Part shown: positions 6,644 through 33,081 of the stretch, piece after piece
How positions within the stretch are numbered: the first letter of the stretch is position 1
How the letters are laid out: each line of letters opens with the position of its first letter
NCBI RefSeq assembly: GCF_003054555.1
Contig: NZ_CP026304.1
Location: forward strand, 7,316,001 to 7,380,000
DNA length: 64,000 nt
Direction of reading: 5' to 3'
Source: Streptomyces lunaelactis
GTDB taxonomy: Bacteria > Actinomycetota > Actinomycetes > Streptomycetales > Streptomycetaceae
Made by a program: the position numbers and the translations under genes
Notes under the pieces: model-generated
Database searches by the model: none
Told to the model about the DNA's origin: nothing
What the model saw: only the letters and a program-made list of their open reading frames with translations

Positions 6644-6668
6644 CCGCAGACACGTTGAGGAGCATCAG

Positions 6669-6998: not shown

Positions 6999-7000
6999 CC

Positions 7001-12956: not shown

Positions 12957-13162
12957 TCTCCCTCGCCAACGAACACCTGGGCACCGACCTGAAGCCGGAC
13001 GACGCGGGACGCGAGCTGACCGAGCTCCCCTGCTGGGACTCGGTCCATCTGCTGCGTCTCGTCTCCCTGCTGGAGACGGAGCTGGGCAGGCAGGTGCCGG
13101 TCGCCGAGATGCTCGAGGCCCGCAGTCTGAGCGAGATCTGGACCGTAGCGGTGGGGACATGA
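12935..13162 (+). CDS. Acyl carrier protein (glyceryl-ACP)
   Basis: A 75-residue free-standing ACP. The predicted phosphopantetheine serine is Ser36 in CWDSVHLL. Its start at 12935 follows AGGAGGTGG and lies 22 bases inside the end of the FkbH-like gene, which couples the two. Small ACPs next to FkbH-like enzymes in tetronate clusters hold the glyceryl unit; that is the inferred role. It is distinct in sequence from the starter ACP (GLDSVAAL) and from the type II ACP near 41 kb. Confidence 0.88.
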   Translation: MHTVVDLISLANEHLGTDLKPDDAGRELTELPCWDSVHLLRLVSLLETELGRQVPVAEMLEARSLSEIWTVAVGT

Positions 13163-14773: not shown

Positions 14774-16020
14774 CGATCACGACAGAGGTCTGTGTGGTGG
14801 GTGGCGGTCCCGGCGGCCGCGCGCTCGCTCTCGCACTGGTACGCCTGGGACGCCGGGTGGTCCTGCTGGAACAGCGCACGGGCGGGGCCCGCGCCTTCCG
14901 GGGTGAGTCCGTATCGCCGGACGGGGTGCGGCTGCTGGCCGGACTCGGCCTCCTGGAGCGGGTGCGCGAGCACACCCACGAGGTGCACCGGCTGGAGATC
15001 GCCGACGGGGGCGCGCGCGTCCTCGACGTACGCTTCGAGACCTTCCCGTACGCCTACCGCCATCCGGTCGAGCTGGCCCAGCCGGTGCTGCTGTCCGCGC
15101 TGGCCGATGCGGCGGAGGAAGGCGGCGGCTGCACCGTGCTCGAACCGGCCGCCGCGGTCGGGCTGCTGCGGGACGGCGGCTCGGTACGCGGGGTCCGCGC
15201 CAAGACCCCCGACGGGGTGATGGAGATACGGGCCGACGTGACCGTCGGCGCGGACGGCCGCTACAGCTCCGTACGCCGGATGTCCGGCCTCGACCACGGC
15301 GCGAAGCGCACCCCGCTGCAGCGGGACGTCGTCTGGATGAAGCTGCCGTTCCCGGCGGCCTGGGACCGGCGGGCCTACCGGGTGCGGATCAGCTCGGGCC
15401 GCCACGGACTCTTCCTGCCCAGCACCGACGGCACCCTGCGGGTGGGTCTCAACATCCCCAAGGGCGGTCTGCGCGAGCTGCGTTCGGGCGGCCTCGGGCG
15501 GCTGCACGCGCGGCTCGCGGAGCTCGCGCCGGAGCTGGAGCGGGAAGCGGCCGACGGCATCCGCAGCTGGTCCGACACCACCCTGCTCGACATCTTCACC
15601 ACGGACGTACGGCGCTGGTCGGCGCCCGGAGTCGTACTGATCGGCGACGCCGCGCACACCCTGTCGCCGATCCTGGGGCAGGGCGTCAACCACGCCCTGG
15701 CGGACGCGGTCGCCCTCGCCCCGCTGCTCGCGCGGGCGCTCGACGCGCCCCGCGGCGGGCGGCCGGCGGCGCTGGCCGCGGCTGTGAACGTCTTCCAGCG
15801 GGACAGGGTGGGCGCGGTCCGGCGCTCCCGGGGGCTGCAGCTGCGCCAGGAGCGGATGTTCAGCCTCTCCGCGCCTCCCGCGGCGGCGCTGCGGCGCACG
15901 GTCTACCGCGCGCTGAACGCGAGCCCCGTGCTCCAGCGGCGGGTGCTCGCCCCCGCCTACTTCCCCGGCCTGCGGCCCGAGCCGGCCGCGGCACCTTCGA
16001 GGACGGAGCTGCGCACATGA
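14770..16020 (+). CDS. FAD-dependent monooxygenase / oxidoreductase
   Basis: A 416-residue flavoprotein of the p-hydroxybenzoate hydroxylase/UbiH superfamily. The FAD dinucleotide motif is VVGGGPGGRALALAL at residues about 8-22, the DG motif is ADVTVGADGRYSSVRR, and the second FAD motif is GDAAHTLSPILGQGVNHALAD. It overlaps the preceding gene as ATGA and the following hydrolase likewise. Within the tetronate block it may hydroxylate, epoxidise or dehydrogenate the acyl chain or ring. Its substrate is not predictable. Confidence 0.83.
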   Translation: MTITTEVCVVGGGPGGRALALALVRLGRRVVLLEQRTGGARAFRGESVSPDGVRLLAGLGLLERVREHTHEVHRLEIADGGARVLDVRFETFPYAYRHPVELAQPVLLSALADAAEEGGGCTVLEPAAAVGLLRDGGSVRGVRAKTPDGVMEIRADVTVGADGRYSSVRRMSGLDHGAKRTPLQRDVVWMKLPFPAAWDRRAYRVRISSGRHGLFLPSTDGTLRVGLNIPKGGLRELRSGGLGRLHARLAELAPELEREAADGIRSWSDTTLLDIFTTDVRRWSAPGVVLIGDAAHTLSPILGQGVNHALADAVALAPLLARALDAPRGGRPAALAAAVNVFQRDRVGAVRRSRGLQLRQERMFSLSAPPAAALRRTVYRALNASPVLQRRVLAPAYFPGLRPEPAAAPSRTELRT

Positions 16021-17126
16021 ACGACGCGACAGAGCTACGGCTCGGGGCACGCCTGCCTCCGCTGGAGGAACTGAAGCGGTACGTCCTGCTGCACGCCCGC
16101 GCCCAGGGGCTCACGCCGGACCGCTGCCGAGAGCTGCTGGCCCGGGTGAGGAGCGCGGAGGGCGGCGGCCCCGACTCCTGGGCCGCGGTCTGGAACCGTA
16201 CGGCGGACGGTCTCGCGGGCCGCGGCGCTCACCTCGACGCGTGCCGCCACTACGGCCTCGCCCGCTTCCCGTACGCGACCGCGGACGACGCCGAGCGGCT
16301 TCGCGCCGGGCAGCGGTGCGTGCGCACCTTCGACCGCTGGCGCAGGACCCGGCGCGGCATCGAGCGGCTCGAACTCGCGGTGGGGGACGGCCGGTTCGCC
16401 TGCTGGACGGCGGGGCTCTCGGCATCCGAGCCGCGCCCGCTGATCGTCGTCATGGGCGGCATCGTCAGCGTCAAGGAACAGTGGGCTCCGATCCTGGCCC
16501 GTGCCGATGCCCTCGGCGTGGCCCTGGCCGTCACCGAGCTGCCCGGCGTGGGCGAGAACACGCTGCCGTACCGGGCGGACAGTCACCGCATGATCGGCGC
16601 GGTGCTCGACGCGGTCGCGGACCGCGCCGATGTCCGGCGGACCTCCGCGATCGCCCTCAGCTTCGGCGGTCACCTGGCCCTGCGCGCAGCCCTTGTCGAC
16701 GACCGCATCCGCGGTGTGGCGACCGTGGGCGCGCCGCTGCGCCACTTCTTCCTCGACCGCGAGTGGCAGCGCCGGGTCCCGGCCACGACGGTGCTCACGC
16801 TCGCACACCTCATCGGCTGCGAGCCGGGCGAGGTCTTCGACGCCGTACGCGAATGGGCGCTGAGCGAGGAGGAGTTGAGGCGGATCACCATTCCGGTGAC
16901 GTACGCGGCTGCACTGCGCGACGACATCGTGCCGCTGACGGAGACGGGAGAGCTGCTGCGGGACGCGGGTGCCCGACGCCAGGTTCTGCTCCTGGACGAC
17001 GAACACGGCGCACCGGGGGAGCTGGCACGGGTGCGGGTGGCACTGCTGCGGGGGGCGCTGGGGCGGTGGGCGTGGTGCGGTGCGCCGGGGTTCTGGCCGT
17101 GTCGGGCGGAACGCAGCGGGTGCTGA
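16017..17126 (+). CDS. Alpha/beta hydrolase (tetronate acetate-elimination-type)
   Basis: A 369-residue alpha/beta hydrolase with an N-terminal helical region of about 120 residues. The nucleophile elbow is ALSFGG (Ser215) and a candidate catalytic His lies in LDDEHGAP. Tetronate clusters such as agglomerin and abyssomicin pair an E2-type acyltransferase with a hydrolase of this size that expels acetate to give the exocyclic double bond. The presence of both in one operon supports that reading. The C-terminal 30 residues are rich in Trp, Cys and Arg and look non-conserved. A simple esterase role cannot be excluded. Confidence 0.78.
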   Translation: MNDATELRLGARLPPLEELKRYVLLHARAQGLTPDRCRELLARVRSAEGGGPDSWAAVWNRTADGLAGRGAHLDACRHYGLARFPYATADDAERLRAGQRCVRTFDRWRRTRRGIERLELAVGDGRFACWTAGLSASEPRPLIVVMGGIVSVKEQWAPILARADALGVALAVTELPGVGENTLPYRADSHRMIGAVLDAVADRADVRRTSAIALSFGGHLALRAALVDDRIRGVATVGAPLRHFFLDREWQRRVPATTVLTLAHLIGCEPGEVFDAVREWALSEEELRRITIPVTYAAALRDDIVPLTETGELLRDAGARRQVLLLDDEHGAPGELARVRVALLRGALGRWAWCGAPGFWPCRAERSGC

Positions 17127-17148
17127 GCCGGAGGGGGCGGGTCGCCGT

Positions 17149-17547
17149 ATGAACGGTGCGAGGGCAATTCAAGCGAGCCGCTCCGGCTGGACCTACCACG
17201 CTCCCGCCGGCCGCGCCCTCAGCGGCGGGATCGGGATCGCCGCCCTCGTCACCGGCGCCCGCCTCGGCGGGGCGCGAAGCCGCGTCCTGTGGACCACCGC
17301 CGTGCTCCCCGACGTCGCCCTGCTCTACGGCATCGCCGCCGCCCCCGGCTTCGAGCGGCTGCCCCCCTACGCCGTACGCCCCTACAACGTCCTGCACTCG
17401 CCCGCCGTACCCGCCGTGCTGCTCACCCTCGCCGCCATCACCCGCAGCCGGCGCACCGCCGTCGCCGGGCTCGGGTGGCTCGGGCATATCGCCGTCGACC
17501 GCGCCTTCGGATACGGGCCCCGCAGGCCGGACGGCCTGCGGTACTGA
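17149..17547 (+). CDS. DUF4260-like small membrane protein
   Basis: A 132-residue protein with alternating hydrophobic helices (about residues 22-40, 45-65, 85-100) and the LGHIAVDRAFGYGPRRPDGLR ending characteristic of DUF4260 proteins. It is predicted to be an integral membrane protein of unknown function. It is separated from the hydrolase by 22 bases and may be transcribed with it. No biosynthetic role can be assigned. Confidence 0.7.
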   Translation: MNGARAIQASRSGWTYHAPAGRALSGGIGIAALVTGARLGGARSRVLWTTAVLPDVALLYGIAAAPGFERLPPYAVRPYNVLHSPAVPAVLLTLAAITRSRRTAVAGLGWLGHIAVDRAFGYGPRRPDGLRY

Positions 17548-17559
17548 ACCACCGCCCGG

Positions 17560-18759
17560 TCAGGACCAGTTCACCGGCAGCGACTCCAGCCGGTTGACGA
17601 GCAGCCCGGTGTGCATCCGGACCTCCTCCACCGGTACGGCAAGCCGCAGCGAAGGGAAGCGCCGGGCCAGTGAGGACAGCGCGATCTGCAGCTCGGCGCG
17701 CGCCAGCGGCGCGCCCAGGCAGTAGTGCGGGCCGTGTCCGAAGGCCAGATGCGGGGCGCCCCGGCGGCCCGGGTCGAAGCGGTCCGCATCCGCGAACCGG
17801 CTCTCGTCCCGGTTCGCGGAACAGATCGCCCCGATCACCGCGCTGCCCGTCGGCACAACGGTCCCTGCCAGCTCGATCTCGGCCGTGGTGACCCTGAGGG
17901 GACCGCCGTCCCCGATGGGGTTGACCCGCAACAGCTCCTCCACCAGCGTGGCCAGTGGCTCGGGTGACGCGGGCACCACACCCAGCCCGCCGGTGTGCCG
18001 CAGCAGCGTGAACACCGACGTCCCCAGCACCCCGACCGTCGTCTCGTGCCCGGCGATCAGCAGCGTCATCGCCATGGTGATCAGCTCGTGCTCGGTCAGC
18101 GGTCCGTCCTCGTCCCGCACCTGGACGAGCGCGCTGAGCAGATCGTCGCCCGGCTTCTGCCGCTTGTCGGCGACGAGTTGCTGCAGATAGGCGACGAGCG
18201 CCAGCTTGCGCTCCAGCATCTGCTCCGGGGTGTGCGCGGTGAGCGACAGAATCGCGTCCGACCAGCCCCTGAACAGTTCACGGTCGGCGAACGGGACACC
18301 AAGCAGCTCGCAGATCACCGCGACGGGATACGGGAACGCGAAGGCGTCGTTGAAGTCGACGGGCCCGCCCCGCTCCGCCATCCGCTCCAGCAGCTCGTCC
18401 GCCAGCTCCTGGATGCGGGGCCGCAGCATGTCAACCCGGCGCGCTGTGAAGGCACTCGACACCAGAGAGCGCAGCCGGGTGTGCTCGGGCGGGTCCATGG
18501 TGAACAGACCGCCCGCGTCGAACGGGACGGCCGTGAGCCGGGGCGACTCGGGAAGCACCGTTGCCGCTCTGCTGCACCGGGGGTCGGAGAGCACGTTACG
18601 TACATCGTCGTAACGGCTGAACAGATACGCTCCGTCACCGCTGGGCATCACGACGTCGGTCACCGGAGCGTCACTGCGCAGCCGCGCGTACTCCTCCGGC
18701 AGTTCGGTCGCCGAGCGGCGAGCGGGTGGATAGCTGCGCACGGTGGATTCCTGAGGCAT
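17560..18759 (-). CDS. Cytochrome P450
   Basis: A 399-residue P450 with the I-helix AGHETT, the K-helix EELLR and the heme-binding loop FGHGPHYCLGAPLAR (Cys347). It belongs to the soluble actinomycete CYP105/107-like group and is expected to hydroxylate or epoxidise a pathway intermediate with ferredoxin partners encoded elsewhere. I start it at the ATG at 18759 (MPQESTV); the longer frame upstream has no family sequence. It is convergent with the tetronate operon, with only 12 bases between stops, and divergent from the response regulator. It may tailor the tetronate product, but association is only by position. Confidence 0.9.
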   Translation of the reverse strand: MPQESTVRSYPPARRSATELPEEYARLRSDAPVTDVVMPSGDGAYLFSRYDDVRNVLSDPRCSRAATVLPESPRLTAVPFDAGGLFTMDPPEHTRLRSLVSSAFTARRVDMLRPRIQELADELLERMAERGGPVDFNDAFAFPYPVAVICELLGVPFADRELFRGWSDAILSLTAHTPEQMLERKLALVAYLQQLVADKRQKPGDDLLSALVQVRDEDGPLTEHELITMAMTLLIAGHETTVGVLGTSVFTLLRHTGGLGVVPASPEPLATLVEELLRVNPIGDGGPLRVTTAEIELAGTVVPTGSAVIGAICSANRDESRFADADRFDPGRRGAPHLAFGHGPHYCLGAPLARAELQIALSSLARRFPSLRLAVPVEEVRMHTGLLVNRLESLPVNWS

Positions 18760-18884: not shown

Positions 18885-19490
18885 ATGATCAGAGTGGTCC
18901 TTGCGGAGGACATGCACATGGTGCGGGGGGCACTGGTCGCCTTGCTCAATCTCGAGTCCGACATTCAGATCGTGGCGGAGGTCGGTACCGGACGGGACAT
19001 TCTTCCCGCCGTGTTACTGCACCATCCCCATGTCGCGGTGCTGGACATCGATCTGCCGGGCCTGGACGGGCTGGCCGCGGCCGCCGAGGTCCACGCCAAG
19101 CAGCCGTCCTGCCGCACCCTGATCCTCACCGGTCTCGGCCGCCCCGGCAATCTGCGCCGGGCGCTGGAGGCGCAGGTGTCCGGGTTCATCCTGAAGGACG
19201 CGCCACCGAGCCAGCTCGCCGACGCGATAAGACGGGTGTCCGTGGGAGAGCGGGTGATAGACCCGCAGCTCGCGCTCGACGCCTGGGCGGCCAGGGACAA
19301 TCCGCTCACGGCCCGTGAGACCGAGGTACTGCGGATGGCCGCCGACGGCGCGGAGGCGCCCGACATCGCCGGCCGGCTGTATCTGACCGTGGGGACCGTA
19401 CGGAACTATCTGACGACGGTCGTCACCAAACTGGGGGCGCGCAACCGGGTCGACGCGATCCGTATCGCCCGCGAGCAGGGCTGGCTCTGA
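18885..19490 (+). CDS. NarL/FixJ-type response regulator (TTA codon)
   Basis: A 201-residue two-component regulator. The receiver domain (residues about 1-120) has the phospho-acceptor Asp54 in VLDIDLPG and a Lys in GFILKDAP. The LuxR-type HTH follows at 135-195 (LTARETEVLRMAADG, LTVGTVRNYLTTVVTKLGARNR). Base triplet 19014-19016 is an in-frame TTA, so full translation should depend on the bldA tRNA and hence on developmental stage. The ribosome site before ATG 18885 is weak. Its likely partner kinase lies tail to tail at 19521-20777. It probably controls one or more of the flanking pathways. Confidence 0.87.
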   Translation: MIRVVLAEDMHMVRGALVALLNLESDIQIVAEVGTGRDILPAVLLHHPHVAVLDIDLPGLDGLAAAAEVHAKQPSCRTLILTGLGRPGNLRRALEAQVSGFILKDAPPSQLADAIRRVSVGERVIDPQLALDAWAARDNPLTARETEVLRMAADGAEAPDIAGRLYLTVGTVRNYLTTVVTKLGARNRVDAIRIAREQGWL

Positions 19491-19520: not shown

Positions 19521-20777
19521 CTACGTGATCTGCCGTTCCAGCAGGACCCGTGTCTGCTGCGGCACCCGGCGCTTCCCTCCGCAGTCCAGCGGAACTTCGG
19601 CCTCCAGATGGAAGCAGCCGTCCTCCCGTACGCCGGCGGTCAGTGCGCCGCCGACCGCGCAGACGCGGGCGGAGAGATTGCCGATTCCGCTGCCGTCGTA
19701 GAGGGACGGCTCCTCGGGGGTGCGGGCGACCCCGTCGTTCATCACATGCAGCACCACCGCGCCGTTCCCGGCCCGGTGGGCCGAGATGCGGCAGCGGCGC
19801 ACCCGGCTGTGCCGCAGGATGTTGGTGATCCCCTCACGCAGGACGGTCGCGAGCACCGTGCCCACCTGGTCCGGCAGATCCGTCAGCGTGCAGTCGACCT
19901 CGATGTCGATGCCCGCCGCGCCGCACACCGAGTGTGCGGAGGCGAGTTCCGCGGGGAAGGACATGTCGCGGTAGCTGCGGGCGACCTGCCGGGTGTCGGC
20001 GAGCGCCTGGCGGGAGATCTCCAGCACCGTCGAGAGTTCCTCCCGCGCCCGCGCCGGATGCTGATCGACCAGCCGCAGCGTCAGCTCGCTGCGCAGCGTG
20101 ATCGCGGAGAGGCTGTAGCCCAGCAGATCGTGCAGATCGCGGGCGAAGCGCAGCCGCTCCTGCTCCACCGCGAGCCGGGCGATCTCCTGCTGTGCGCTGC
20201 GCAGTTGGAGCACCATCTCGGAGAGCGCGGTCAGTCCGTAGACCAGACTCGTGATCAGGACGGTGGAGACGCCGATATAGGCGACGTCGATGACGGTCTT
20301 GCCGCTCCAGGACGTCGTCAGCGCCATGGTGCTCACGACGGTGGCTCCGGCTGACAGCCACGACCAGGGCGGGCGCAGTACCAGCAGCAGGGAGCCGGCG
20401 AGGAAGCCGGTGACCCCCACCCAGGCGGTGCCCATGAAGAGGATCGGGGGATAGGTGAGCCCCACCTGCACGGCCAGGATCCAGTACTGCTGTCCGCGCC
20501 TCAGCCGCACCCGTCTGGGCGCCGACAGCACGACCTGACAGGCGAACATCCCGAGCAGGGCCGCCGCGCCCCCGATGAGGTCGGTGAGGCTCTGCTGCAC
20601 CGTGAGCAGATGCAGGGTCGCGGCGGCCAGCACACTGCCAAGAGCGACCAGGAGAATGGTCAGAGCGATCTTGGGCGCCAGACCCGCGTCGCCTCCGCTG
20701 CGCGGAGGCGTGGCCGAATCGCTGCGGTCCGGGCTGTGCAAGTGCTTTCTCTCCTGGGTTCGATTCACGTCAAGCAT
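19521..20777 (-). CDS. NarL-family sensor histidine kinase
   Basis: A 418-residue membrane kinase. About five or six hydrophobic segments lie between residues 36 and 185. They are followed by a coiled linker, the HisKA_3 dimerisation motif with His216 in FARDLHDLLGYS, and an HATPase domain with EGITNILRHS and GSGIGNLSARV. It autophosphorylates and transfers to a NarL-type regulator, presumably the convergent one at 18885. The signal is unknown. Tail-to-tail arrangement, instead of the usual operon, means the pair must be expressed from separate promoters. Confidence 0.88.
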   Translation of the reverse strand: MLDVNRTQERKHLHSPDRSDSATPPRSGGDAGLAPKIALTILLVALGSVLAAATLHLLTVQQSLTDLIGGAAALLGMFACQVVLSAPRRVRLRRGQQYWILAVQVGLTYPPILFMGTAWVGVTGFLAGSLLLVLRPPWSWLSAGATVVSTMALTTSWSGKTVIDVAYIGVSTVLITSLVYGLTALSEMVLQLRSAQQEIARLAVEQERLRFARDLHDLLGYSLSAITLRSELTLRLVDQHPARAREELSTVLEISRQALADTRQVARSYRDMSFPAELASAHSVCGAAGIDIEVDCTLTDLPDQVGTVLATVLREGITNILRHSRVRRCRISAHRAGNGAVVLHVMNDGVARTPEEPSLYDGSGIGNLSARVCAVGGALTAGVREDGCFHLEAEVPLDCGGKRRVPQQTRVLLERQIT

Positions 20778-20846: not shown

Positions 20847-23099
20847 CTAGACAAACAGCGGAATCGGATTGAGCTGCTCATAGGGGATGGGCGTATTCCG
20901 CCGGCCCAGCCGTACGGGCACGTCGTACAGCCGTCCCGAGCCGAAGCGGGCCCAGAAGTGCCGCAGTCCGGGCACCATCACCTTCACGGTCGGCAGCCCG
21001 AGGTCGGGCCGGGTCTGGTCGAGGACGAGCAGCTCCATGCCGTGCTCGCGCACCAGCTGCTCAGCGGCCTTGATGTCGTCGAGGAGGTCCGGGCGCAGCG
21101 TGTAGCCGTAGTCGCCACGGCACTTCGCGGGAACGCTCCGGTCGGGGCCCAGGTAGGGCTGGTTGGCGAGGGTGCGGCGGGTACACCAGTCGATGAGCTG
21201 CGGATCGTCGGCGCAGGGCGGACCCAGTACGGCGGGCAGCAGCTGGTTCAGCTCGGTGAGCGCCCGCCTCAGCGCGATGCCGGGGTCGAAGTGGCAGCCG
21301 AAGCCGAACATGATGTCCTCCTCCGGCTTGTCGATGCGGCGGGAGACCGCGGCCATGGCCGGGATGCCCAGGTCCGAGGTGAGATCCAGTACCCAGAACT
21401 CCCTTTTGAGCTGGGCGTACTGGGCGTGCATCTCGTCGATCCACGGGTCGGGGAAGGAATTCAGGTCGACGCCGGGCTGCCGGGTGCGGTTGTACCACCA
21501 CAGTGCGACGGCATCCCGTTCGACCAGCTCGAAAAAGCCTTGCAGGATGGCGTCTTCGATGCTGCTGCCCGCCGCGTTGCCGTTGGAATCGGCCAGTGCG
21601 AAGCACGGTCCCTGTGCGGGCGGTGCGGAGTAGTAGAGCATCTGGGTCGGCAGCATCCGGTGCCTGCCGTGGGTGAGCGACCAGATCGGCGTCCAGTCGA
21701 TCGGGGTCTTCTCGTCGAACGGGTCGCAGATGTACTGGAACGGCGGCTGTACGGCATTCCACTGCAGCCGGTTCGTGTACTGCCGTTCATCGTAGAGCTG
21801 GCACTGATTGGGGCGGATGGCGTCGCCGGCCAGCTCCGCGAAGCTGGCACGGATCCGCGGTTCGTCCCCGTGGAGCGTGGCGGAGTAACGTTCCACCGCC
21901 TCGCAGAGGGCGCCGACCTTGGCATCGAGCGAGGTGGTTCCCTTGCCTCCGCTCTGGCTGCGCAGACTGGAACGGAACGCCGTCAGACTGCGGTGGGTCA
22001 GCGCCGGATTGGGCCCCGAGTGGTACGAGTTGAGGAAGTCCGGGCCGCCGGGCGCCCGTTGCAGCATGCTGACCACGCCGGTGACCCTGCCGACCAGATG
22101 CTCGTAACGCTCCAGGACCTGCTCGGACGTCAGGGCCCGGTGGCCGCCGGTGAGGGTCTTCTTGGGCCGCGATGTGATGGCGACGGGCTGCTGCACCCGC
22201 TCCCCGACCAGCCGGGGGTCGCCGCACTCAGGACACTGAGGCCGCTGTCCGACCGGATGCGACCGGACACTCAGCGAAAGGTTGTCCAGAACTCGTATGG
22301 CCATCTGGCTCGAATCGCGGTAGCCGGCTATCCACTTGGCCGCTTCCAGGGCGATCGCCTGGAGAGCGAGGGACCGGCTCGCCGCGATGGTCGCGCGCGG
22401 CGGCGCCGCGGCGGAGGACAGCCCGAGCGCCTGCCCCACATGCTGCTCCGGCTGCCGGTGGTGATTGAGCCGGTAGGCCATGCAGTTCCAGCACGCGCCC
22501 TCGCCCGGCTGGAACACCGGCCCGATCCAGGGCTCGACACCGTGTGGTTTGGCCAGCATCCAGGGACGTCCCGACCTGCGCTGTTCCTTGTCGATCTCCT
22601 TGAGCTGAGGCAGGAGATAGTCGTCGCACAGGACGACCGTCAGGGCGCAGCCGCCGGGGCCGCTGAGCGCGACCCCGACGTTGAGAAAGGCGCCCCGGGT
22701 GGCAGTTCCGCCGAGGGAGGCCAGGTCCAGCAGTCGGACCCGGCCCCTCGTCAGAGCCTCTCCCGCGCTCGCCGCCTCGAGCCCCGCGGCTTCCCAGAAC
22801 GCCGCGGCGTCCTTGTCCGTGAAGTCGGCCTGAGGCGGCGCGGCGCATCCGGTGACCAGATTCGCCTGCGTCAGCTTCCCCAGGAGACTGCCGAGTTCGG
22901 TCGGCGACAGCAGGCCCTGGGTGTCCCGCACGAGCGCGGACAGATCCCTGCTGCCGTCCAGAAGAGGAGCGAGGACCGCGACGGCCTCACCCTCGATCGC
23001 GGTGACACCCTGTTCGGAGACCAGATAGGTCGCCTCGCCCGGTACTACGGCGGTGGTGAGGTGTCGCCTGAACCCGATCCGTGGCCATAGGGAATCCAC
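20847..23099 (-). CDS. Fused YcaO-type cyclodehydratase (azoline-forming, RiPP)
   Basis: A 750-residue fusion of the leader-binding/E1-like partner and a YcaO domain. The N-terminal half has a zinc tetrathiolate signature, CWNC (203-206) and CPEC (289-292). The YcaO half shows ATP-site segments SGGKG (383-387), ALCEAVERYS (397-406) and GNAAGSSIEDAILQGFFELVERDA (starting about 507), and ends in a proline-containing PIPLFV tail, as active cyclodehydratases do. The family uses ATP to convert Cys, Ser or Thr side chains to azolines, or in some members forms thioamides. The GTG at 23099 lies 8 bases after the stop of the upstream small gene, whose product has a recognisable leader, so the two look like enzyme and substrate. 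Confidence 0.88.
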   Translation of the reverse strand: MDSLWPRIGFRRHLTTAVVPGEATYLVSEQGVTAIEGEAVAVLAPLLDGSRDLSALVRDTQGLLSPTELGSLLGKLTQANLVTGCAAPPQADFTDKDAAAFWEAAGLEAASAGEALTRGRVRLLDLASLGGTATRGAFLNVGVALSGPGGCALTVVLCDDYLLPQLKEIDKEQRRSGRPWMLAKPHGVEPWIGPVFQPGEGACWNCMAYRLNHHRQPEQHVGQALGLSSAAAPPRATIAASRSLALQAIALEAAKWIAGYRDSSQMAIRVLDNLSLSVRSHPVGQRPQCPECGDPRLVGERVQQPVAITSRPKKTLTGGHRALTSEQVLERYEHLVGRVTGVVSMLQRAPGGPDFLNSYHSGPNPALTHRSLTAFRSSLRSQSGGKGTTSLDAKVGALCEAVERYSATLHGDEPRIRASFAELAGDAIRPNQCQLYDERQYTNRLQWNAVQPPFQYICDPFDEKTPIDWTPIWSLTHGRHRMLPTQMLYYSAPPAQGPCFALADSNGNAAGSSIEDAILQGFFELVERDAVALWWYNRTRQPGVDLNSFPDPWIDEMHAQYAQLKREFWVLDLTSDLGIPAMAAVSRRIDKPEEDIMFGFGCHFDPGIALRRALTELNQLLPAVLGPPCADDPQLIDWCTRRTLANQPYLGPDRSVPAKCRGDYGYTLRPDLLDDIKAAEQLVREHGMELLVLDQTRPDLGLPTVKVMVPGLRHFWARFGSGRLYDVPVRLGRRNTPIPYEQLNPIPLFV

Positions 23100-23106
23100 G
23101 TGCAGC

Positions 23107-23472
23107 TCAGATGGGCAGGGTGCCGACGGCGCCCTGTCGCACAGGCTCGGGGACCAGGGCCTGCCGTGTGGCGCAGATGCAGGCGAAGCGGGCCCCGGGA
23201 ACGCTGAAGGCGGGGTCGCTCTCATCGGCCGAGCTGAGGTTGGTGATCGTGACTTCGGTGTCCGCCTCGGCCGGCAGCGCGGGGATGATGCTTTCCGGCG
23301 CTATCGGAATGCCGAATTCGGCGAGAACATTGCGCGGTTCCAGCGCGTACCGCAGGGCGAGCTCCGGCTGCAGAAAGCTCCGTGCGACGAGTTCGGCGAA
23401 ACGCCAGTCGTGTTCCACGGATGTGGTGCAGGCCCCTTGAGCTGCGGTTCCACTGGACGCGTAACCAGACAT
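23107..23472 (-). CDS. Putative RiPP precursor with nitrile-hydratase-like leader (NHLP)
   Basis: A 121-residue protein. Residues about 20-62 (HDWRFAELVARSFLQPELAL, then EPRNVLAEFGI) resemble the nitrile hydratase alpha-subunit segment used as leader in NHLP precursors. Residues 63-93 are acidic and Thr/Ser-bearing. The candidate core near the C-terminus contains FACICATR (Cys98, Cys100, Thr102) and Thr118. There is no double-Gly cleavage site, so leader processing is unclear. The ATG at 23472 has GGGAG 8 bases upstream. It lies directly before the YcaO gene in the same transcript and divergent from a SARP gene. The precursor call rests on leader resemblance plus context; a structural or carrier function is the alternative. 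Confidence 0.75.
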   Translation of the reverse strand: MSGYASSGTAAQGACTTSVEHDWRFAELVARSFLQPELALRYALEPRNVLAEFGIPIAPESIIPALPAEADTEVTITNLSSADESDPAFSVPGARFACICATRQALVPEPVRQGAVGTLPI

Positions 23473-23747
23473 CTTGGTGCTCCCATCGTGATGTGAACGG
23501 TGCCGGTCAGGTCGTTCCCGTGCGGATGTTCGGCTGCGCATACGACAGCAGTGTGCTGGCGGGTGACTGGAATCGAACAGTGGAGACGTCATCTCCCTGG
23601 ATGTGAAGATTTCATAGGCCCCCTCCAGGTGATCTCCATACATGGCTTGTGATCTGGTCACTGTTTCTGCGTATTTGCCGTATGGGACCCTCCGGTGAAC
23701 CAGCTTCCTGCCACAAGGGAGCTGTCCGACGGGGTGAGGAAAAGGCC
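23473..23747. promoter_or_regulatory. Divergent promoter region between RiPP pair and first SARP gene
   Basis: A 275-base non-coding stretch that must hold both promoters. It is visibly less GC-rich than the genes. An inverted repeat GTGA-TCTGG-TCAC spans 23649-23661, and the SARP-box-like word GGTGAAC (complement GTTCACC) occurs near 23694. I see no regularly spaced heptamers, so operator assignments are tentative. Confidence 0.4.
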
Positions 23748-24590
23748 ATGCCGAACAGGGGGCGCAGGGTGCGCGTCGAAGTACTGGGAAGTCTCCGCGG
23801 CGAGGCCGTGGGAGTCTCTCTGCTTCCCAGCGCCTCCAAACCACGGCAGATCCTGGCTCTTCTCGCCCTCAACGCACAGCACATCGTGCCCGTCCCGGTG
23901 CTCATGGAAGAGCTCTGGGGCGCGGGACCGCCGCGCAGCGCGCCCACCACGCTGCAGACGTACATCCTGCAGCTGCGGCGCAGACTGCGCTCCGCGATCC
24001 CCGAGACGGCCGGGGTATGGGACAAGAACGTCCTGGTGACCCGGCACGGCGGCTATCTGCTCGACGCGGACCCCGCCGATGTCGACGCCCTGGAGTTCGA
24101 CCGCCTCACCGGCGCCGGCCACACCGCCTACGAAGTGGGCGACATGGCCTCCGCGTCGGGCCAGCTCACCGCGGCCCTGAAGCTGTGGCGCGGCCCGGCA
24201 CTGGCCGACGTACCCCATGGGCGCCATCTCGGTATCGAGGTGACCCGGCTCCAGGAGAGCCGGCTCGGGGCACTGGAACGCCGTATCGGCGCCGACCTGC
24301 GGCTCGGCAGGCACCGCGAAGTGCTCGGCGAGCTGAGCGCACTGTGCGAGCACCACCCCCTGCACGAGAGTCTGCGGGCGCAGCAGATGCTCGCCTACTG
24401 CGCGGACGGGCGGTCGTCCGATGCGCTGATCTCCTACAAGCGCCTTCGCGAAACCCTGGTCGAGGAACTGGGCCTTGAGCCCTCTCCTCGAATTCAGCGG
24501 CTTCACCAGGCAATCCTCCGAGGTGAGGAAGCCATGGACGTGTGGAGTGGCCCCGGACGCCCGGGTGGTGCCGGCGCTCTCACCGGCTGA
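23748..24590 (+). CDS. SARP-family transcriptional activator 1
   Basis: A 280-residue Streptomyces antibiotic regulatory protein. The N-terminal OmpR-like winged helix (about residues 8-105) includes KPRQILALLAL and TTLQTYILQLRRRLR. The bacterial transcriptional activation domain follows at 112-255 (EFDRLTGAG, RGPALADVP, LGLEPSPRIQRLHQAIL). SARPs bind direct repeats and recruit RNA polymerase to activate their cluster. GGTGAGGAAAAG precedes the ATG. It is a close paralog of the SARP at 25500, with a thioesterase between them. Its target block is not determinable here. Confidence 0.9.
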   Translation: MPNRGRRVRVEVLGSLRGEAVGVSLLPSASKPRQILALLALNAQHIVPVPVLMEELWGAGPPRSAPTTLQTYILQLRRRLRSAIPETAGVWDKNVLVTRHGGYLLDADPADVDALEFDRLTGAGHTAYEVGDMASASGQLTAALKLWRGPALADVPHGRHLGIEVTRLQESRLGALERRIGADLRLGRHREVLGELSALCEHHPLHESLRAQQMLAYCADGRSSDALISYKRLRETLVEELGLEPSPRIQRLHQAILRGEEAMDVWSGPGRPGGAGALTG

Positions 24591-24708: not shown

Positions 24709-25470
24709 GTGAACCAGTACCTTGCGGTGGCGCCCGGAATCTCGGAGTTGCCCGACCCGGCGCTCCGGCTGTTCTGCTTCCATCACGCGGGTGCGGGGGC
24801 TCTGGCCTTCGCCCGCTGGCGTCCCCGCTTCCCGCGGGACGTCCAGGTCCTTCCGGTCCGGCTGCCGGGGCGGGAGACCAGACTGCGGGAGCCGCGCATC
24901 ACCGACTCCGCGCAGCTGCTCGCCGAACTCGACGCGAACCTGGGCCCGTTGCTCGATGTGCCGCACGCTTTCTACGGGCACAGCCTCGGCGCCCTGGTCG
25001 CCTACCGGTTCGCGCTCCATCGCACCCGTGCCGGGCACCGGCCGCCGGTGCTCGTCGGCGTCGGCGCGTGCGCCGCGCCTCATCTGCCCACCCCGCTCGT
25101 CGAGCAGGCGGATCTGCCCGACGACAGACTGCTGGCCGCGCTCGCGCGGTACGGCACCCTGCCGCCCTATCTCTTCGAGCGGCCCAAGTGGCTGGGCATT
25201 CTGCTCTCCACCATGCGCGACGACCTCCAGCTCGCACGGAGTCTGCGGGAGGGGTCCGGCGGAGCGCTGTCCACTCCGCTGCACGCCTTCGCGGGCAGCG
25301 AGGACATGGTCGCCACCGTTCCCACGGTTGCCGCATGGAGCCGCTACACCAGCGCCGCCTTCGATCTGCGGACTGTCGCCGGCGGCCACTTCTTCGTCCG
25401 CGGCGCGGACCTGCCCACCTTGCTCGCGGCACAACTGCGCCTTGTCGCCACACCCCGTCCGATCGCCTGA
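24709..25470 (+). CDS. Type II thioesterase
   Basis: A 253-residue alpha/beta hydrolase of the editing thioesterase class. Ser92 lies in YGHSLGALVAYR, the Asp region in GSEDMVA and the His in GGHFFVRG; FCFHHAGAG and LPVRLPGRETR are typical N-terminal signatures. Such enzymes release misprimed acyl groups from carrier proteins. GTG start 24709 follows GAGGAGG. It sits between the two SARP genes and far from any one synthase, so it may serve the type I module at 7001, the cryptic block at 26-40 kb, or both. Confidence 0.9.
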   Translation: MNQYLAVAPGISELPDPALRLFCFHHAGAGALAFARWRPRFPRDVQVLPVRLPGRETRLREPRITDSAQLLAELDANLGPLLDVPHAFYGHSLGALVAYRFALHRTRAGHRPPVLVGVGACAAPHLPTPLVEQADLPDDRLLAALARYGTLPPYLFERPKWLGILLSTMRDDLQLARSLREGSGGALSTPLHAFAGSEDMVATVPTVAAWSRYTSAAFDLRTVAGGHFFVRGADLPTLLAAQLRLVATPRPIA

Positions 25471-25499: not shown

Positions 25500-26354
25500 A
25501 TGGACATCAGCGTGCTGGGACCCTGCCGGGTCGTCCAGTCGGGAGTTTCTGTCGTCCCCACTGCAGTCAAACCACGCAAGGTCCTCGCCCTGCTCGCCAT
25601 GCACCCGGACCAAGTGGTCTCGGTGGGCTCACTGGTGGAGGAGCTGTGGGGCGAAGCCCCGCCACGCAGTGTCCAGACCACCTTGCAGACCTACATCCTT
25701 CAGCTGCGCAACCTCATCGCCACCGCAATCGGCGGGGCCTGCCGGCCCGAGCTGCCGAACGGCGCCAAGAGCATCCTCGTCACCGAGTCGGGCGGCTATC
25801 TGCTCGACACCCAGGGCGGGGTCGTCGACGTCTGTGAGTACGAACGGCTCGCCGGGACCGGACATCGCGCCCTGGAGAGCGGCAACTGCCCGGTCGCGTC
25901 CGAATCCTTCCGGGGGGCGCTCGCCCTGTGGCGCGGCCCCGCACTCGTCGACGTCCAGTGCGGAGCGCTCCTCGAGATCGAGGCGACCCGGCTCGAGGAG
26001 TCGCGTCTGAGCATCCTCAACCAGCGTATCGAGGCCGATCTGCGGCTCGGCCGCCACCACGAGTTGGTGGGGGAGCTGTCCGGACTGTCCGCCCAGCATC
26101 CGATGCACGAGGACACCCAGGGGCAGTTGATGCTCGCGCTGTACCGCTCCGGGCGGCGCAGCAACGCGCTCGAGGTCTATCAGCGGCTGCGTACGGTGCT
26201 CTCCATCGAGCTGGGGCTCGACCCCTCGCCCCGTCTCCAGCATCTGCAGCGCGCGATGCTGGAGTCCTCACTCGAACTGGAGATCCAGTCCGAACTCGCG
26301 CGGGTGGGAGCCGGAGTCGGGGCAGGTGTCGGGCGGGGCCTGCGGGCGCGCTGA
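25500..26354 (+). CDS. SARP-family transcriptional activator 2
   Basis: A 284-residue SARP paralogous to the one at 23748. The winged-helix domain has KPRKVLALLAM and TTLQTYILQLRNL, and the activation domain has CEYERLAGTGHRAL, RGPALVDVQ and LGLDPSPRLQHLQRAML. A Gly/Val-rich tail (VGAGVGAGVGRG) ends the protein. The ATG follows AAGGGAG. It converges on the minus-strand operon of block 3 with only 4 bases between stops. The two SARPs could divide control between neighbouring blocks. Confidence 0.9.
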   Translation: MDISVLGPCRVVQSGVSVVPTAVKPRKVLALLAMHPDQVVSVGSLVEELWGEAPPRSVQTTLQTYILQLRNLIATAIGGACRPELPNGAKSILVTESGGYLLDTQGGVVDVCEYERLAGTGHRALESGNCPVASESFRGALALWRGPALVDVQCGALLEIEATRLEESRLSILNQRIEADLRLGRHHELVGELSGLSAQHPMHEDTQGQLMLALYRSGRRSNALEVYQRLRTVLSIELGLDPSPRLQHLQRAMLESSLELEIQSELARVGAGVGAGVGRGLRAR

Positions 26355-26358
26355 ACGC

Positions 26359-27498
26359 TCACGCCCCGGTGGCCCGGCCGCCGGCCCCCCGCGCGTGCAC
26401 GGCATCGGCCGGATCCTCCCGGCGCCGTAGCACCTGGGCCGACTGCCACATCCGGGCTGCCGCCCACTGAGTGTCCGATCCGCGGAAGCCCTCGCACAGC
26501 TGCGGCAGATGGGGCCGCAGCGCCTCCCGCACGGAGGGGGCGAAGTGGACATCGCCGGCCCGGTCGATACGCACCCCCTCGGCCGAGGTGAGCCGTTCGT
26601 TGTAGCCGACGGCGTCGGCGAGGCTGAGCCCGTACGGCAGATCGAGGTCGACCCGCCGCCGGGTGACCCGTGCGGGATAGCCGCCGGGCAGCCCCTGCGG
26701 TCCCGGCACGGCGGTACGCAGTTCCGGACCGCCGTGCAGTGCGGTGAGCAGGCGGGCCACCGTGTGCGCGGTGACCGGGTTCAGCGCCTCGCGCGGCACG
26801 CCCCGCTGCGGGGCCAGAAGCTGTCCCACGCCGCCCAGTTCATGGTTGCCGAGCCAGACCCTGGCCTCGTCGTCCGGGTGGTCGGGCCGGTGCAGATGAC
26901 GGTGGTGCGCCAGCACCCGCAGCCCCCGGCGGGCCGCGGGTCCGAGTGCCGTCTCCACCGATGCGGTGATCAGCGTCCCGTTGCCCACGCCGCACACGAC
27001 CGGCAGACCCAGCCGGTGCAGCAGCGGATTGACCGCGTCCGGATAGCAGGCGTTGACCAACTGCGCCTGTGGCGCGGCCTGCTGGAGCGCCCTGCCGACC
27101 CGCAGCGCGACGGCCGCCTGAAGAGGCAGCGTCGCCGCGAAGCCGCAGCGGTCGAGCACTCTCGTCCAGGCGGACGGCGTACGGTCCCGCTCCCAGGGCG
27201 AATGCCAGGACGCGCACACCAGCACCGTGCCCGGCCGGATCGCCGCCAGCCGCTCTCTCAGCAGTCCGTCGTCGGAGTCCAGCTCACCGGGGACGAACCG
27301 GCGCGGCACCCGGCAGAGTGCCGCCTCGGCCCGCGCCAGATAGCAGACGGACGAGGCCCGTCCGCTGTCCCGGCCGAGCACATGCACCTGGCCGGGCCCC
27401 TGCGCTGCGGGCGTGCGGGCGAGCGTGACACAGACGGCGCGGGCGAGCGAGCCCGTGCCGATGACGACGAGTGTGGGGGGTTCGTGTCGTCGGATCAC
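26359..27498 (-). CDS. NAD(P)-binding dehydrogenase-like protein, function unknown
   Basis: A 379-residue protein opening with a Rossmann nucleotide loop, LVVIGTGSLARAVCVTLAR, and HVLGRDSGRAS as the likely second strand. A region NACYPDAVNPLLHRLGLPVVCGVGNGTL recalls lactate/malate-type dehydrogenases, while the overall length and start suggest the broader saccharopine or ornithine-cyclodeaminase-type group. I cannot place it in a precise family. It begins with GTG overlapping the ATP-grasp stop and is the last gene of a five-gene minus-strand operon. A role in oxidising or reducing an amino-acid-derived intermediate made by the two upstream enzymes is plausible only. Confidence 0.55.
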   Translation of the reverse strand: MIRRHEPPTLVVIGTGSLARAVCVTLARTPAAQGPGQVHVLGRDSGRASSVCYLARAEAALCRVPRRFVPGELDSDDGLLRERLAAIRPGTVLVCASWHSPWERDRTPSAWTRVLDRCGFAATLPLQAAVALRVGRALQQAAPQAQLVNACYPDAVNPLLHRLGLPVVCGVGNGTLITASVETALGPAARRGLRVLAHHRHLHRPDHPDDEARVWLGNHELGGVGQLLAPQRGVPREALNPVTAHTVARLLTALHGGPELRTAVPGPQGLPGGYPARVTRRRVDLDLPYGLSLADAVGYNERLTSAEGVRIDRAGDVHFAPSVREALRPHLPQLCEGFRGSDTQWAAARMWQSAQVLRRREDPADAVHARGAGGRATGA

Positions 27499-28919
27499 CG
27501 GCCGGCCTCCCCGGCACGGGTACTGGCAGCGGCATCGGCCGGATCCGCCCAGGTGAGCACCGCGTTCTCCGCGGCACCCGCCCCGCCGACACTGATCACC
27601 CCGCGGGACGCCGACCTGTCGGCCTCGTCGGCGAGGAACCGCGCCCAGCAGCCGCCCGGCCGGTCGCCGAAGAGCATCGGACTGAGGACGGGCGCCACCT
27701 GAGCGGTGAACACAGCCCTCCCGTCGGTGAGTTCGAGATCGCAGGAGGCGGGCTCGACGTACTGCTGGACCACGCTGTCCGCGGCGGCGAACGCCGCCTC
27801 GACGGCCAGCCGCCAGTCGGCGGGCTCGGTGTGCCGGCCGACGAGGACCTCACGGCCCATCATGCCGATGGCCTTCTTGAGGACGAACCGTTCCTGCCGG
27901 CCGAGGAGCAGCTCGGAGAGGTCGTGGTCCCCGCCCTCCCAGCGGGTGCGGCCGGGCAGCGTGATGCGGGTCCACGGCAGATGGCGGTCGGCCACGGCGC
28001 GCTCGGCGCGGGTCATCCAGGGACGGCCCTCCGAAACGAGCGCCAGAGCCTTCTTGTTGGCGAGCAGCCCGCTGCTCTGCGGCGGAAGAAGAAGCAGCCC
28101 CGCGCGCTGCGCGTCATACACCGGCCGCAGACTCTGACCGCGTTCCGTCCAGTCGGCGGTGGCGAAATTACGCAGACCGAGCGGATAGCGCAGGTTGCCG
28201 GGACGTCCCAGCGCGTCCGGGAGCTGATCCGGTTCGAAGAAGTCGGCGGCGAAGCCGCGCCTGCGGAACTGCTCCAGCTCAATTTCCTGGAAGCGGACGT
28301 CGGCATCGTCCTGGAGATCGCCCAGACTTCCGATGATGGCGACCGCCCTGGGCAGCCGGCGGCTCGAGCACACATCCTCGAAGGCGCGCACCCGGGCGAG
28401 AAGCGGGTCGTGCCCGAAGAAGCGCTCACTGTGAGTTCGCTGCCAGACGGCGGTCAGACCGTGGGACTCGTTGGGGCCGCCGAAGGTGCCGCTGACATTG
28501 AACTCGAGAAGCTGCGGCCCGTTCTCACCGATGACGATGTCCGGGCGGGCCATCATCGAGCAGTACGCCGTCTCCGTGTTGTCCTGCCCGGACAGCAGCG
28601 GATAGTCGGCCGGGTCCGCGCCGAGCGCCTCGATACGGCCCGGCCAGCCGCCGTCGAGGGCGAGGACCGCCCGGCGTACCAGAGCGAGCAGCGTACGGGC
28701 GACGTCGAACAGCTCGTCGTAGGACTGCCGGGGCAGTACGAACGGCTGCGCCGGCACCCAGGGCCCCGGCAGCGACACGCTCAGCCCTGCCAGCTCCCCC
28801 CGCAGCAGCGCGGTCACCTCGGCCGGCGACGCCGTCCGCAGACTCGACGGTGCGGGCCTGCTCTCGTCACGGAACCAGGGGTGCGAGGTTCCCGTCCCCG
28901 CCGACGCGGTGCCGGTCAT
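27495..28919 (-). CDS. ATP-grasp-like ligase
   Basis: A 474-residue protein with features of circularly permuted or glutathionylspermidine-synthase-like ATP-grasp enzymes: NGPQLLEFNVSGTFGG (metal-binding Glu/Asn region), ANKKALALVSEG, RFVLKKAIGMMGREVLVG (Lys/Gly loop) and VVQQYVEPA. Such enzymes form amide or related bonds from an acyl-phosphate intermediate. It overlaps both operon neighbours as ATGA-type junctions, so stoichiometric co-production with the PLP-like protein and the dehydrogenase-like protein is expected. The substrates are unknown; an amino acid or a carboxylate from this block is a reasonable guess. Confidence 0.65.
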   Translation of the reverse strand: MTGTASAGTGTSHPWFRDESRPAPSSLRTASPAEVTALLRGELAGLSVSLPGPWVPAQPFVLPRQSYDELFDVARTLLALVRRAVLALDGGWPGRIEALGADPADYPLLSGQDNTETAYCSMMARPDIVIGENGPQLLEFNVSGTFGGPNESHGLTAVWQRTHSERFFGHDPLLARVRAFEDVCSSRRLPRAVAIIGSLGDLQDDADVRFQEIELEQFRRRGFAADFFEPDQLPDALGRPGNLRYPLGLRNFATADWTERGQSLRPVYDAQRAGLLLLPPQSSGLLANKKALALVSEGRPWMTRAERAVADRHLPWTRITLPGRTRWEGGDHDLSELLLGRQERFVLKKAIGMMGREVLVGRHTEPADWRLAVEAAFAAADSVVQQYVEPASCDLELTDGRAVFTAQVAPVLSPMLFGDRPGGCWARFLADEADRSASRGVISVGGAGAAENAVLTWADPADAAASTRAGEAGR

Positions 28920-30325
28920 GACCGCCGTCCCCGGTGCGAGGCGGCGGGCCCCATGGCGCGGCTCACGACCGGGTGCAGCTCGGCGGTGTCCGCCGCCCGC
29001 TGCAGCCGCTGGGCGGGTATCGGCGAGAAGTCGGTCTCCGCGTACGACCCCGAACCGTGCACCAGCACTTCGGGCTCCGTCAGCAGCCCCCGGTCGACGG
29101 CCTCCATCACTCCCGTGAAGACCATGACGAGGGACCACTCGCGCACCGTGCGCGGATCGTGCGGGAGCTCGACGCCGGCCGGTCGCAGCATCTCGCGGAT
29201 CTGCGGATAGCGGGCCAGGCACTCGTGCAGCGATACGACGACGCCCCCGCCGCCGTTCGCCTTGATCAGCGGCGTCATCACCCGGCTGGTCATGGGCGCT
29301 CGCGTGTAGAAGGTCGGGTCGATGACCTCCTCGGGATGGTGCGTGGTGCGCGGGAAGTGCGGGTCGGAGCTCTGGTGGTACAGCCCGGTGGAGGTCTCCA
29401 GGGTGAAGCGCGGCATCCGCTCCCGGGAGGCGTCGCCGTGCAGCAGATCCAGCACCATGTCGGGGGTGCTGAGGTGCTGTACGAGGAAGTAGCGCGGCGG
29501 CATGCGCTCTTCGCCGCCGCCGGTCAGTGAGGTGCCGTAGTGATGGCCGAGCAGACCGAAGGCGCTGGACACGGCGTGTGCGTGCACCCGTCCGTGGGCC
29601 GGCGGCGGGGGCATCAGCTCCGCCTCCATCAGTGCCCGAACGGTGTCCGCGGCCTGGTAGTTGGCGATGTCGAGGGTGTACCAGAGTGCGCTGCCGTAGC
29701 GCGTACGCAGCAGGTCGCCGTACTCGTCGTAGTAGGCGCGGGCGAGCTCCTTGACGCCCGCCGGGTCCGGGCCCGGGTAGGTCACGACGGGGTTGCGGCG
29801 GCGCAGTTCGGGGTCGGAGCTGAGCGGTGAGTCCCAGAGTTTGGCACGGGAGCGCTCCGGTACGACGCTCACGATCCGCAGCTGGTCCCGGTCCGCGAGC
29901 CCGGCCCGGTGGGCGCGCAGCACGGCGTCGCGCAGAGCGGTGGCCTTGTTGCCGGAGGACGGGGTGAGCAGGGTGACGGGCTCGCCGGTACGCCGGATGT
30001 ACGCGACGGCCCTGGCCACCATCAGCAGCGAGCCGAAGGTCTTGGTGGTACGCGTGCCGGGGTTGCGGCGCAGATCCAGCAGCCGCATCCGGGTTTCGCG
30101 GTAGTCGGGCAGCCGGGCGACCGCGGCCTCGGAGGCTTCGAGGTAGCGCCGCACCGGGCCGTCGAGCGGCGGCAGCTCCGCACCGGGCGTGAAGTCGCCC
30201 GGCAGGGACCTGTGTTCGTGCATGGCCCGGACGGCCCGGCCCACCGTCTCCCAGTACCGGGACAGTGCGGGGACCACTGCCGTAGCGGCGTGCTGCATCT
30301 GGTCGGTTGTCTCGGTGCTGTTCAT
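28916..30325 (-). CDS. Protein with PLP fold-type-II-like motifs (function unknown)
   Basis: A 469-residue protein I do not recognise firmly. Residues 93-130 contain TTKTFGSL (candidate Schiff-base Lys95) and, after a helix and strand, TPSSGNKATALRDAV. This is the order and spacing of the PLP lysine and the Asn-loop in cysteine synthase and threonine synthase relatives. A Ser/Gly-rich VHGSGSYAETD segment near the C-terminus could be the phosphate-facing loop. If the reading is right, it would do beta- or gamma-replacement chemistry on an amino acid. The start ATG 30325 is chosen because the longer upstream frame overlaps unrelated sequence. DUF6002 is a possible database label that I cannot verify. 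Confidence 0.5.
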   Translation of the reverse strand: MNSTETTDQMQHAATAVVPALSRYWETVGRAVRAMHEHRSLPGDFTPGAELPPLDGPVRRYLEASEAAVARLPDYRETRMRLLDLRRNPGTRTTKTFGSLLMVARAVAYIRRTGEPVTLLTPSSGNKATALRDAVLRAHRAGLADRDQLRIVSVVPERSRAKLWDSPLSSDPELRRRNPVVTYPGPDPAGVKELARAYYDEYGDLLRTRYGSALWYTLDIANYQAADTVRALMEAELMPPPPAHGRVHAHAVSSAFGLLGHHYGTSLTGGGEERMPPRYFLVQHLSTPDMVLDLLHGDASRERMPRFTLETSTGLYHQSSDPHFPRTTHHPEEVIDPTFYTRAPMTSRVMTPLIKANGGGGVVVSLHECLARYPQIREMLRPAGVELPHDPRTVREWSLVMVFTGVMEAVDRGLLTEPEVLVHGSGSYAETDFSPIPAQRLQRAADTAELHPVVSRAMGPAASHRGRRS

Positions 30326-30399
30326 CTCCGGCTGACTCCTGACTCGTGAGGTAAGGGAAACGATGGGTCCGGCCCGGCGCCTGTCTTCGTCCCGTGCGG

Positions 30400-33069: not shown

Positions 33070-33081
33070 AGCGGCGCTCCT

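Follow-up and report, generated by a model that had tools for sequence, protein, structure and literature searches.

We found that a small precursor peptide and a fused YcaO cyclodehydratase, encoded side by side in a 64,000-nucleotide stretch of the Streptomyces lunaelactis genome (NCBI RefSeq assembly GCF_003054555.1, contig NZ_CP026304.1, positions 7,316,001 to 7,380,000; this whole stretch is hereafter the window), belong to a recurrent gene unit that also contains a membrane histidine kinase (HK), a response regulator (RR) and a conserved palindrome upstream of the peptide gene, often with a SARP-type activator. We lean slightly towards reading this unit as an autoinducing azol(in)e-peptide circuit, in which the peptide would act through the HK and RR on the peptide and SARP genes, and which would be used by different biosynthetic clusters. 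The findings suggest that in many Streptomyces a peptide, once chemically modified, serves as a private signal that switches on antibiotic genes.

Conservation of the gene unit

In the window, the precursor gene (23107..23472, minus strand) is followed by the gene of the fused cyclodehydratase (20847..23099, minus strand) and by that of the HK, which has a HisKA_3 domain and a membrane sensor without a large extracellular domain (19521..20777, minus strand), with a NarL/LuxR-type RR gene convergent to the kinase (18885..19490, plus strand). A scan of GTDB contigs returned 48 YcaO loci, 47 of them usable for neighbour counts, and of 121 genomes sampled from the genus, 33 have a YcaO relative (E <= 1e-90), the window's own genome counted. 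Our census covers 20 kb around each YcaO in 30 of the other 32 YcaO-bearing genomes (loci L087-L116); it omits G017, in which the match lies at a contig end, and G115, with a 5-kb locus (L062) in which SARP, a small open reading frame (ORF), YcaO and HK are all present.

We observe that in 29 of the 30 census loci the HK follows YcaO on the same strand at a distance of 71-1879 bp, directly or after a SagB gene, the exception (L111) being a larger NHLM-type cluster in which HK and RR lie further on. The RR was found in all 30: it is a called gene in 26, and tblastn added the other four, of which L088 and L091 carry it in full and L096 and L111 gave a partial, distant match. A divergent SARP gene within 2.5 kb is seen in 19/30 and SagB after YcaO in 10/30. 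Among the 47 GTDB loci the corresponding numbers are 31 for HK, 30 for RR (with L013 and L025 added by tblastn), 26 for SARP and 23 for SagB, and YcaO occurs together with HK in 31 of the 121 genus genomes. Peptide, modifying enzyme, HK and RR thus stand in one unit, the gene content of two-component peptide quorum sensing. The initial annotation of the window, which was made from the sequence alone, had named the SARP and overlooked the HK, RR and palindrome, which are more constant partners; of the two neighbours that it had singled out for a conservation check, the divergent SARP recurs as above and the type II thioesterase is inconstant.

Eight Amycolatopsis loci (L027-L030, L032, L033, L036 and L049) have HxlR and AraC regulators alongside, and L027 retains an RR-like gene. 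The Streptosporangiaceae loci (L038-L043, L047, L048, L050 and L054) hold several precursors of the nitrile hydratase leader peptide (NHLP) type, NHLM exporter genes, a LanM-like gene and YcaO with SagB, and one of them has two HK/RR pairs; their domains were named from L040 only, the rest being assigned by sequence clustering.

A shared palindrome in the promoter region

Precursors were chosen with an upstream-ORF picker that favoured VIEDL-like motifs and made no use of the palindrome. Applied to 79 loci, it returned an ORF within its score and length limits in 53 and none in 26, which are mainly Amycolatopsis, Streptosporangiaceae and non-actinobacterial loci (one locus, L056, has no full YcaO); after removal of 11 near copies, 42 non-redundant precursors were left, some of them still fairly close relatives. 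On aligning the promoter regions we saw a shared inverted repeat, RTGA-N5-TCAY. The divergent intergenic region between precursor and SARP in the window (23473..23747) holds two copies, GTGAAGATTTCAT (23603..23615) and GTGATCTGGTCAC (23649..23661), 46 bp apart.

This 13-bp palindrome is found within 330 bp upstream of the precursor in 38 of the 42 non-redundant loci (52 sites), with a median of 124 bp between the nearest copy and the precursor start, whereas 500 first-order shuffles averaged 0.83 loci and never exceeded 5. Identical half-sites at other spacers (0-12) occur in 0-4 loci, and the density of 3.75 sites/kb in promoters compares with 0.089/kb over whole loci, which is 42-fold lower. 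When all 4+4 dyads were ranked, ATGA-N5 (16 loci) and GTGA-N5 (13 loci) came out on top; in 100 shuffles no dyad exceeded 9. Two copies are often 23 or 45-46 bp apart. Counted over the whole 8.57-Mb genome, the 46-bp-spaced pair occurs only in the window, and the 23-bp pair is present at six places in the 121 genomes, compared with one for the reversed control pattern. Five of these six lie at this cassette. The sixth, in G121 (L144), precedes a SARP gene whose frame is broken into two parts; an RR that shares 57.5% identity with the one in the window lies 3 kb off, and tblastn detected no YcaO, HK or precursor in the 20 kb around it. The stretch 8598-13269 of L144 comprises the split SARP, the RR and three palindromes, and is apparently a remnant of the cassette.

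The palindrome also co-occurs with the kinase, being present in 37/42 loci with an HK within 2 kb and in 3/26 without (Fisher p 2e-10, relatedness ignored). In ten loci that have both HK and palindrome, the 2.5 kb upstream contain no SARP gene; within the stretch read, three of them (L021, L031 and L094) have a SARP elsewhere and none was detected in the other seven. Because of these ten loci, the RR is the likelier binder of the palindrome, judging from gene arrangement, and the SARP is less likely to own it, yet the palindromes of G121 lie at a SARP promoter.

Similarity of core and sensor

Next, we compared the variable core of the precursor with the membrane sensor of the HK. A first run on 33 loci gave a correlation of r 0.51 between core and sensor similarity, with partial correlations of 0.46 given the kinase domain and 0.39 given YcaO. 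A more careful alignment (n=38) gave r 0.42, with partials of 0.39 and 0.33, respectively; the non-rank p values of this run are all 0.001, which is the floor of 1000 permutations. The effect persists with rate-matched columns (partial 0.30 given YcaO and 0.38 given the kinase), and among pairs below 65% YcaO identity the partial given YcaO is 0.26. The reverse partials were about zero in both runs. This is suggestive of core similarity following the HK sensor, modestly, beyond what YcaO or kinase-domain similarity accounts for.

Precursor peptide and cyclodehydratase

The precursor has 121 residues and an NHLP-type leader. It matches the profile TIGR04351 (TOMM_nitrile_2) at 56.3 bits (E 1.7e-15), not reaching the curated cut-off of 65, and across 13 homologues, itself included, the leader region is near-invariant and the C-terminus variable. 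Profile matches and coordinates agree with the initial annotation, which had described a 121-residue protein with a nitrile-hydratase-like leader directly before a fused cyclodehydratase. The core that it had proposed, FACICATR (23164..23187, minus strand), has Cys98 and Cys100 as given there, with Thr118 beyond it and Thr102 as a further residue; modification of this candidate core is predicted. Residues 73-79, EVTITNL (23236..23256, minus strand), are the counterpart of a (D)LVIEDL-like motif that stands before the core in most relatives and is presumed to be the recognition motif for the leader-binding domain. A loose VIEDL-like pattern precedes the tail in 37 of the 42 non-redundant precursors, compared with a mean of 0.9 in shuffled precursors, a count that is biased upward because the picker favoured ORFs with that motif.

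Upon examining the tails of the 42 precursors, we find CxC in 15, [T/S]xC in 16, other cysteines in 10 and no cysteine in one. We therefore rejected CxC as the defining core, and of the expected conservation of the CxC segment it is the presence of a tail cysteine (41/42) that stands, the strict spacing not being fixed. The refuting conditions set out with the initial annotation, loss of CxC beside a retained YcaO or variable ATP-site residues, thus have a mixed outcome, as the zinc cysteines and presumed ATP residues of YcaO are highly conserved. An adjoining precursor with a conserved leader and a variable, heterocyclisable core is what is expected of an azol(in)e member of the ribosomally synthesised and post-translationally modified peptides (RiPPs). 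In 19 of the 42, the precursor is shorter than 75 residues and by eye only the VIEDL-like motif remains of the leader. Two precursors have repeated cores (four times in L037; in L089 three times, with a unit containing FTFC), as expected of a precursor for small excised peptides. A Gly-Gly site is not present in the window precursor. The 13 precursor homologues, 48 YcaO loci and YcaO relatives in 33/121 genomes show that the observation is no chance one, and the precursor-enzyme pair is well supported.

Two further ORFs were noted. L105, not caught by the picker, has a 64-aa ORF visible by eye, with the motif WIERLD and the core PTWRCFSG, and in Nocardia panacis an ORF with a weak coding score upstream of a YcaO relative (L046, 9754-9945) has VVIEELD followed by RCGCRCGCRCG.

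The cyclodehydratase fuses a leader-binding, E1-like part to YcaO and has 750 residues when read from GTG 23099, just past the precursor stop. We take this as the likely start because of codon statistics and a LynD alignment that begins at residue 48; the alternative first ATG, at 23225, gives 792 residues (20847-23225). In this longer frame, the leader-binding domain TIGR03882 spans residues 220-385 and TIGR03604 residues 427-790, with PF02624 scoring 343.7 bits, and the best solved relative is LynD (4v1t, 585 bits). Cysteine motifs are found at 245 (CWNC) and 331 (CPEC). Cys245, Cys248, Cys331 and Cys334, which we take to bind zinc, and Glu 442, 445, 566 and 569, presumably the ATP-binding residues, each show at least 95% identity over 78 sequences, that of the window among them, in keeping with the zinc tetrathiolate and YcaO ATP motifs first read from this sequence. 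Leader-binding and YcaO domains with conserved residues are characteristic of the enzyme of azol(in)e RiPPs, that is, thiazole/oxazole-modified microcins (TOMMs) or linear azol(in)e-containing peptides (LAPs).

Of the accessory functions, no SagB dehydrogenase, peptidase or NHLM-type ABC exporter, the last being expected for NHLP precursors, was found among the 52 ORF intervals of the window scanned with Pfam, a subset of its ORFs that includes some alternative frames; this agrees with the initial annotation, which had reported no dehydrogenase, protease or dedicated exporter. A generic MFS transporter lies at 31795-33183. The same genome has a second fused YcaO (L117; G000 C1 1061601-1081600), 42% identical to the first, and no HK of the cassette family lies within 20 kb of it; of the ORFs found upstream, the best has 33 residues and carries EIAIEELD.

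Kinase lineage and modelled structure

In a tree, 61 cassette HKs (near copies included) fall on one side of a branch and 18 HK paralogues, all from the window's own genome, on the other. The branch support of 92/80 points, modestly, to one cassette-kinase lineage. Within it, 51 cassette HKs, all but ten Streptosporangiaceae rows, group at 100/98. In an AlphaFold2 model of the HK (mean pLDDT 80, pTM 0.58), the helices fit the hydrophobic stretches and lie ahead of a DesK-like kinase, with a large outside domain absent. A structure search returned 97 matches in the PDB with E <= 0.001, and all of the top 29 listed are DesK.

Genomic surroundings

Divergent from the precursor lies a SARP-type activator with Trans_reg_C and BTAD domains (23748..24590, plus strand), and a second SARP-type activator follows (25500..26354, plus strand), with a type II thioesterase between them (24709..25470, plus strand). 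The thioesterase cluster comprises five loci, the window among them, and the SARP-thioesterase-SARP order is seen also in L009, L010 and L087. The cassette lies between two biosynthetic gene sets. The first (1-17700) encodes a protein with ketosynthase (KS) and acyltransferase domains, a KAS III-like protein, a HAD-type protein that we take to be FkbH-like, acyl carrier proteins and a 2-oxoacid-dehydrogenase-type acyltransferase; with an AMP ligase and acyl-CoA dehydrogenases on the same side of the cassette, it is presumably a tetronate-like polyketide set. The second, at about 34500-59500, is an aromatic type II polyketide synthase (PKS) with KS proteins, an acyl carrier protein, cyclases, SchA/CurD and oxygenases. 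Grouped at 26359-31791 are two ORFs that match no Pfam family (26359-27498 and 27495-28919), a DUF6002 protein at 28916-30643 (690 bits) and, at 30400-31791, a stand-alone condensation domain. Across the census, a KS homologue occurs within 20 kb in 10 of the 30 loci, and is close to the window's type II KS in eight; a fixed association with one PKS type is thus not seen within that distance.

A proposed signal circuit and its rivals

In the circuit that we slightly favour, the E1-like part of the cyclodehydratase would bind the precursor leader, through the NHLP region and/or the VIEDL-like motif, and the YcaO part would turn Cys, Thr and Ser of the tiny core into azolines, or into azoles at loci with a SagB dehydrogenase. 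The peptide, freed of its leader and presumably exported, would be sensed by the neighbouring membrane kinase, probably inside the membrane. The kinase would phosphorylate the RR, and the RR would bind the palindromes (RTGA-N5-TCAY) of the divergent promoter region and switch on the precursor gene, a positive feedback, and the SARP gene too where present; the SARP may then activate the local antibiotic cluster. We regard as evenly balanced the wider proposal of a pheromone class of YcaO-heterocyclised tiny peptides read by a partner membrane kinase, in which a portable cassette (peptide, YcaO, HK, RR, palindrome and often SARP) is present in about one quarter of Streptomyces species, with a private core for each antibiotic cluster. 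If true, many silent Streptomyces clusters would be under small, synthesizable peptides predictable from sequence, so that genome sequence would be enough to name the elicitor of a particular cluster, and peptide two-component signalling would stand at the top of antibiotic regulation in Streptomyces. Such signalling is best known from Firmicutes, and the textbook signals of Streptomyces are small molecules such as gamma-butyrolactones.

Several observations weigh against the circuit, in which export, leader removal and sensing of the peptide are predicted steps. By rank, the core-sensor relation is weak (Spearman 0.08, p 0.088), with rank partials of 0.17 given YcaO (p 0.004) and 0.10 given the kinase (p 0.06). 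The 2x2 test of palindrome against HK overstates independence because the 26 loci without a nearby HK are mostly Amycolatopsis (8) and Streptosporangiaceae (9), the latter of which do have HK genes further away. The palindrome occurs without an HK in the stretch read in L023, L026 and L051, and an HK without the exact palindrome in L024, L044, L047, L095 and L108. The eight Amycolatopsis loci have YcaO, SagB and SARP without this HK family, and no precursor was found upstream of their YcaO. Among those neighbours of the minimal loci that were scanned, a part of the total, we recognised neither an exporter nor a leader protease. Finally, the nearest solved kinase is DesK, a sensor of membrane state and not a peptide receptor.

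The strongest competing reading is that of an ordinary RiPP antibiotic under regulators of its own, in which the peptide is an antibiotic-like end product (a linear azol(in)e peptide) and HK/RR and SARP serve ordinary regulation or sense stress or immunity. We consider this possible and clearly less probable than the circuit. It would fit the Streptosporangiaceae loci and L111, more extensive RiPP clusters that contain NHLM exporter genes as well as HK/RR, and also the LanM-like gene of the former and the DesK-like kinase domain, but a dedicated exporter or immunity gene was not recognised beside the minimal loci, the cassette occurs among differing biosynthetic genes, the sensor tracks the core, and the palindrome lies in a promoter region common to the regulator and peptide genes. 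More doubtful still is that the HK/RR senses another cue, such as membrane state or cell-wall or redox stress, with the peptide as one output that has no signalling role; the DesK-type fold and the modelled sensor, which appears to have no large extracellular domain, are compatible with this, whereas the retention of HK and YcaO together in 29/30 census loci and the agreement of core and sensor similarity beyond YcaO similarity speak against it. The initial annotation had raised the idea that the peptide acts with the polyketide machinery. Such a RiPP-polyketide hybrid, with the peptide as a building block joined to a polyketide, would suit the position of the pair between the tetronate-like and aromatic type II PKS sets and the recurrence nearby of AMP ligase, acyl-CoA dehydrogenase and phosphopantetheinyl transferase genes. 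We now judge it quite improbable because KS homologues lie within 20 kb in only 10 of the 30 census loci; a more distant KS is possible in the other 20.

Comparison with known systems

The unit as a whole is not described in the open-access literature searched, a search by titles and abstract starts with subscription journals mostly outside it. The autoinducing circuit proposed here resembles agr and ComQXPA, which are two-component peptide quorum-sensing systems, in that one unit unites a peptide gene with those of a modifying enzyme, a membrane kinase and a regulator, and in a conserved site, here a predicted regulator site, at the promoter of the peptide gene. It differs from them in the YcaO-type modification, in an output that probably runs via SARP, and in that no exporter has been identified. 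With the DesK/DesR family it shares the kinase core fold, whereas DesK/DesR sits beside a desaturase and the HK described here stands beside a RiPP pair and SARP, with its own conserved palindrome.

Compared with LynD/TruD-type azol(in)e RiPPs (TOMMs and, in the available portion of PMC2887384, their NHLP subclass), the pair has the same fused E1-like and YcaO enzyme, nitrile-hydratase-like leader and Cys/Thr core. Haft et al. (2010, PMC2887384) describe NHLP precursors as having a Gly-Gly cleavage motif and as linked to ABC export. Unlike in those systems, the window precursor has no Gly-Gly and no NHLM exporter was recognised in the window, and HK/RR are constant and SARP frequent. In the main text of a 2015 survey of TOMMs (PMC4603692), the words "polyketide", "hybrid" and "two-component" do not occur; the same text states that goadsporin at low concentration promotes secondary metabolism. 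Microbisporicin induces its own production, through a circuit of an ECF sigma/anti-sigma pair and a regulator with a LuxR-type domain, according to the available part of PMC4973701. The portions of these two sources at hand do not describe a portable HK/RR cassette inside polyketide clusters. By analogy, goadsporin and microbisporicin may nonetheless serve, as far as these partial texts go, as precedents for actinomycete RiPPs that can influence secondary metabolism or their own production.

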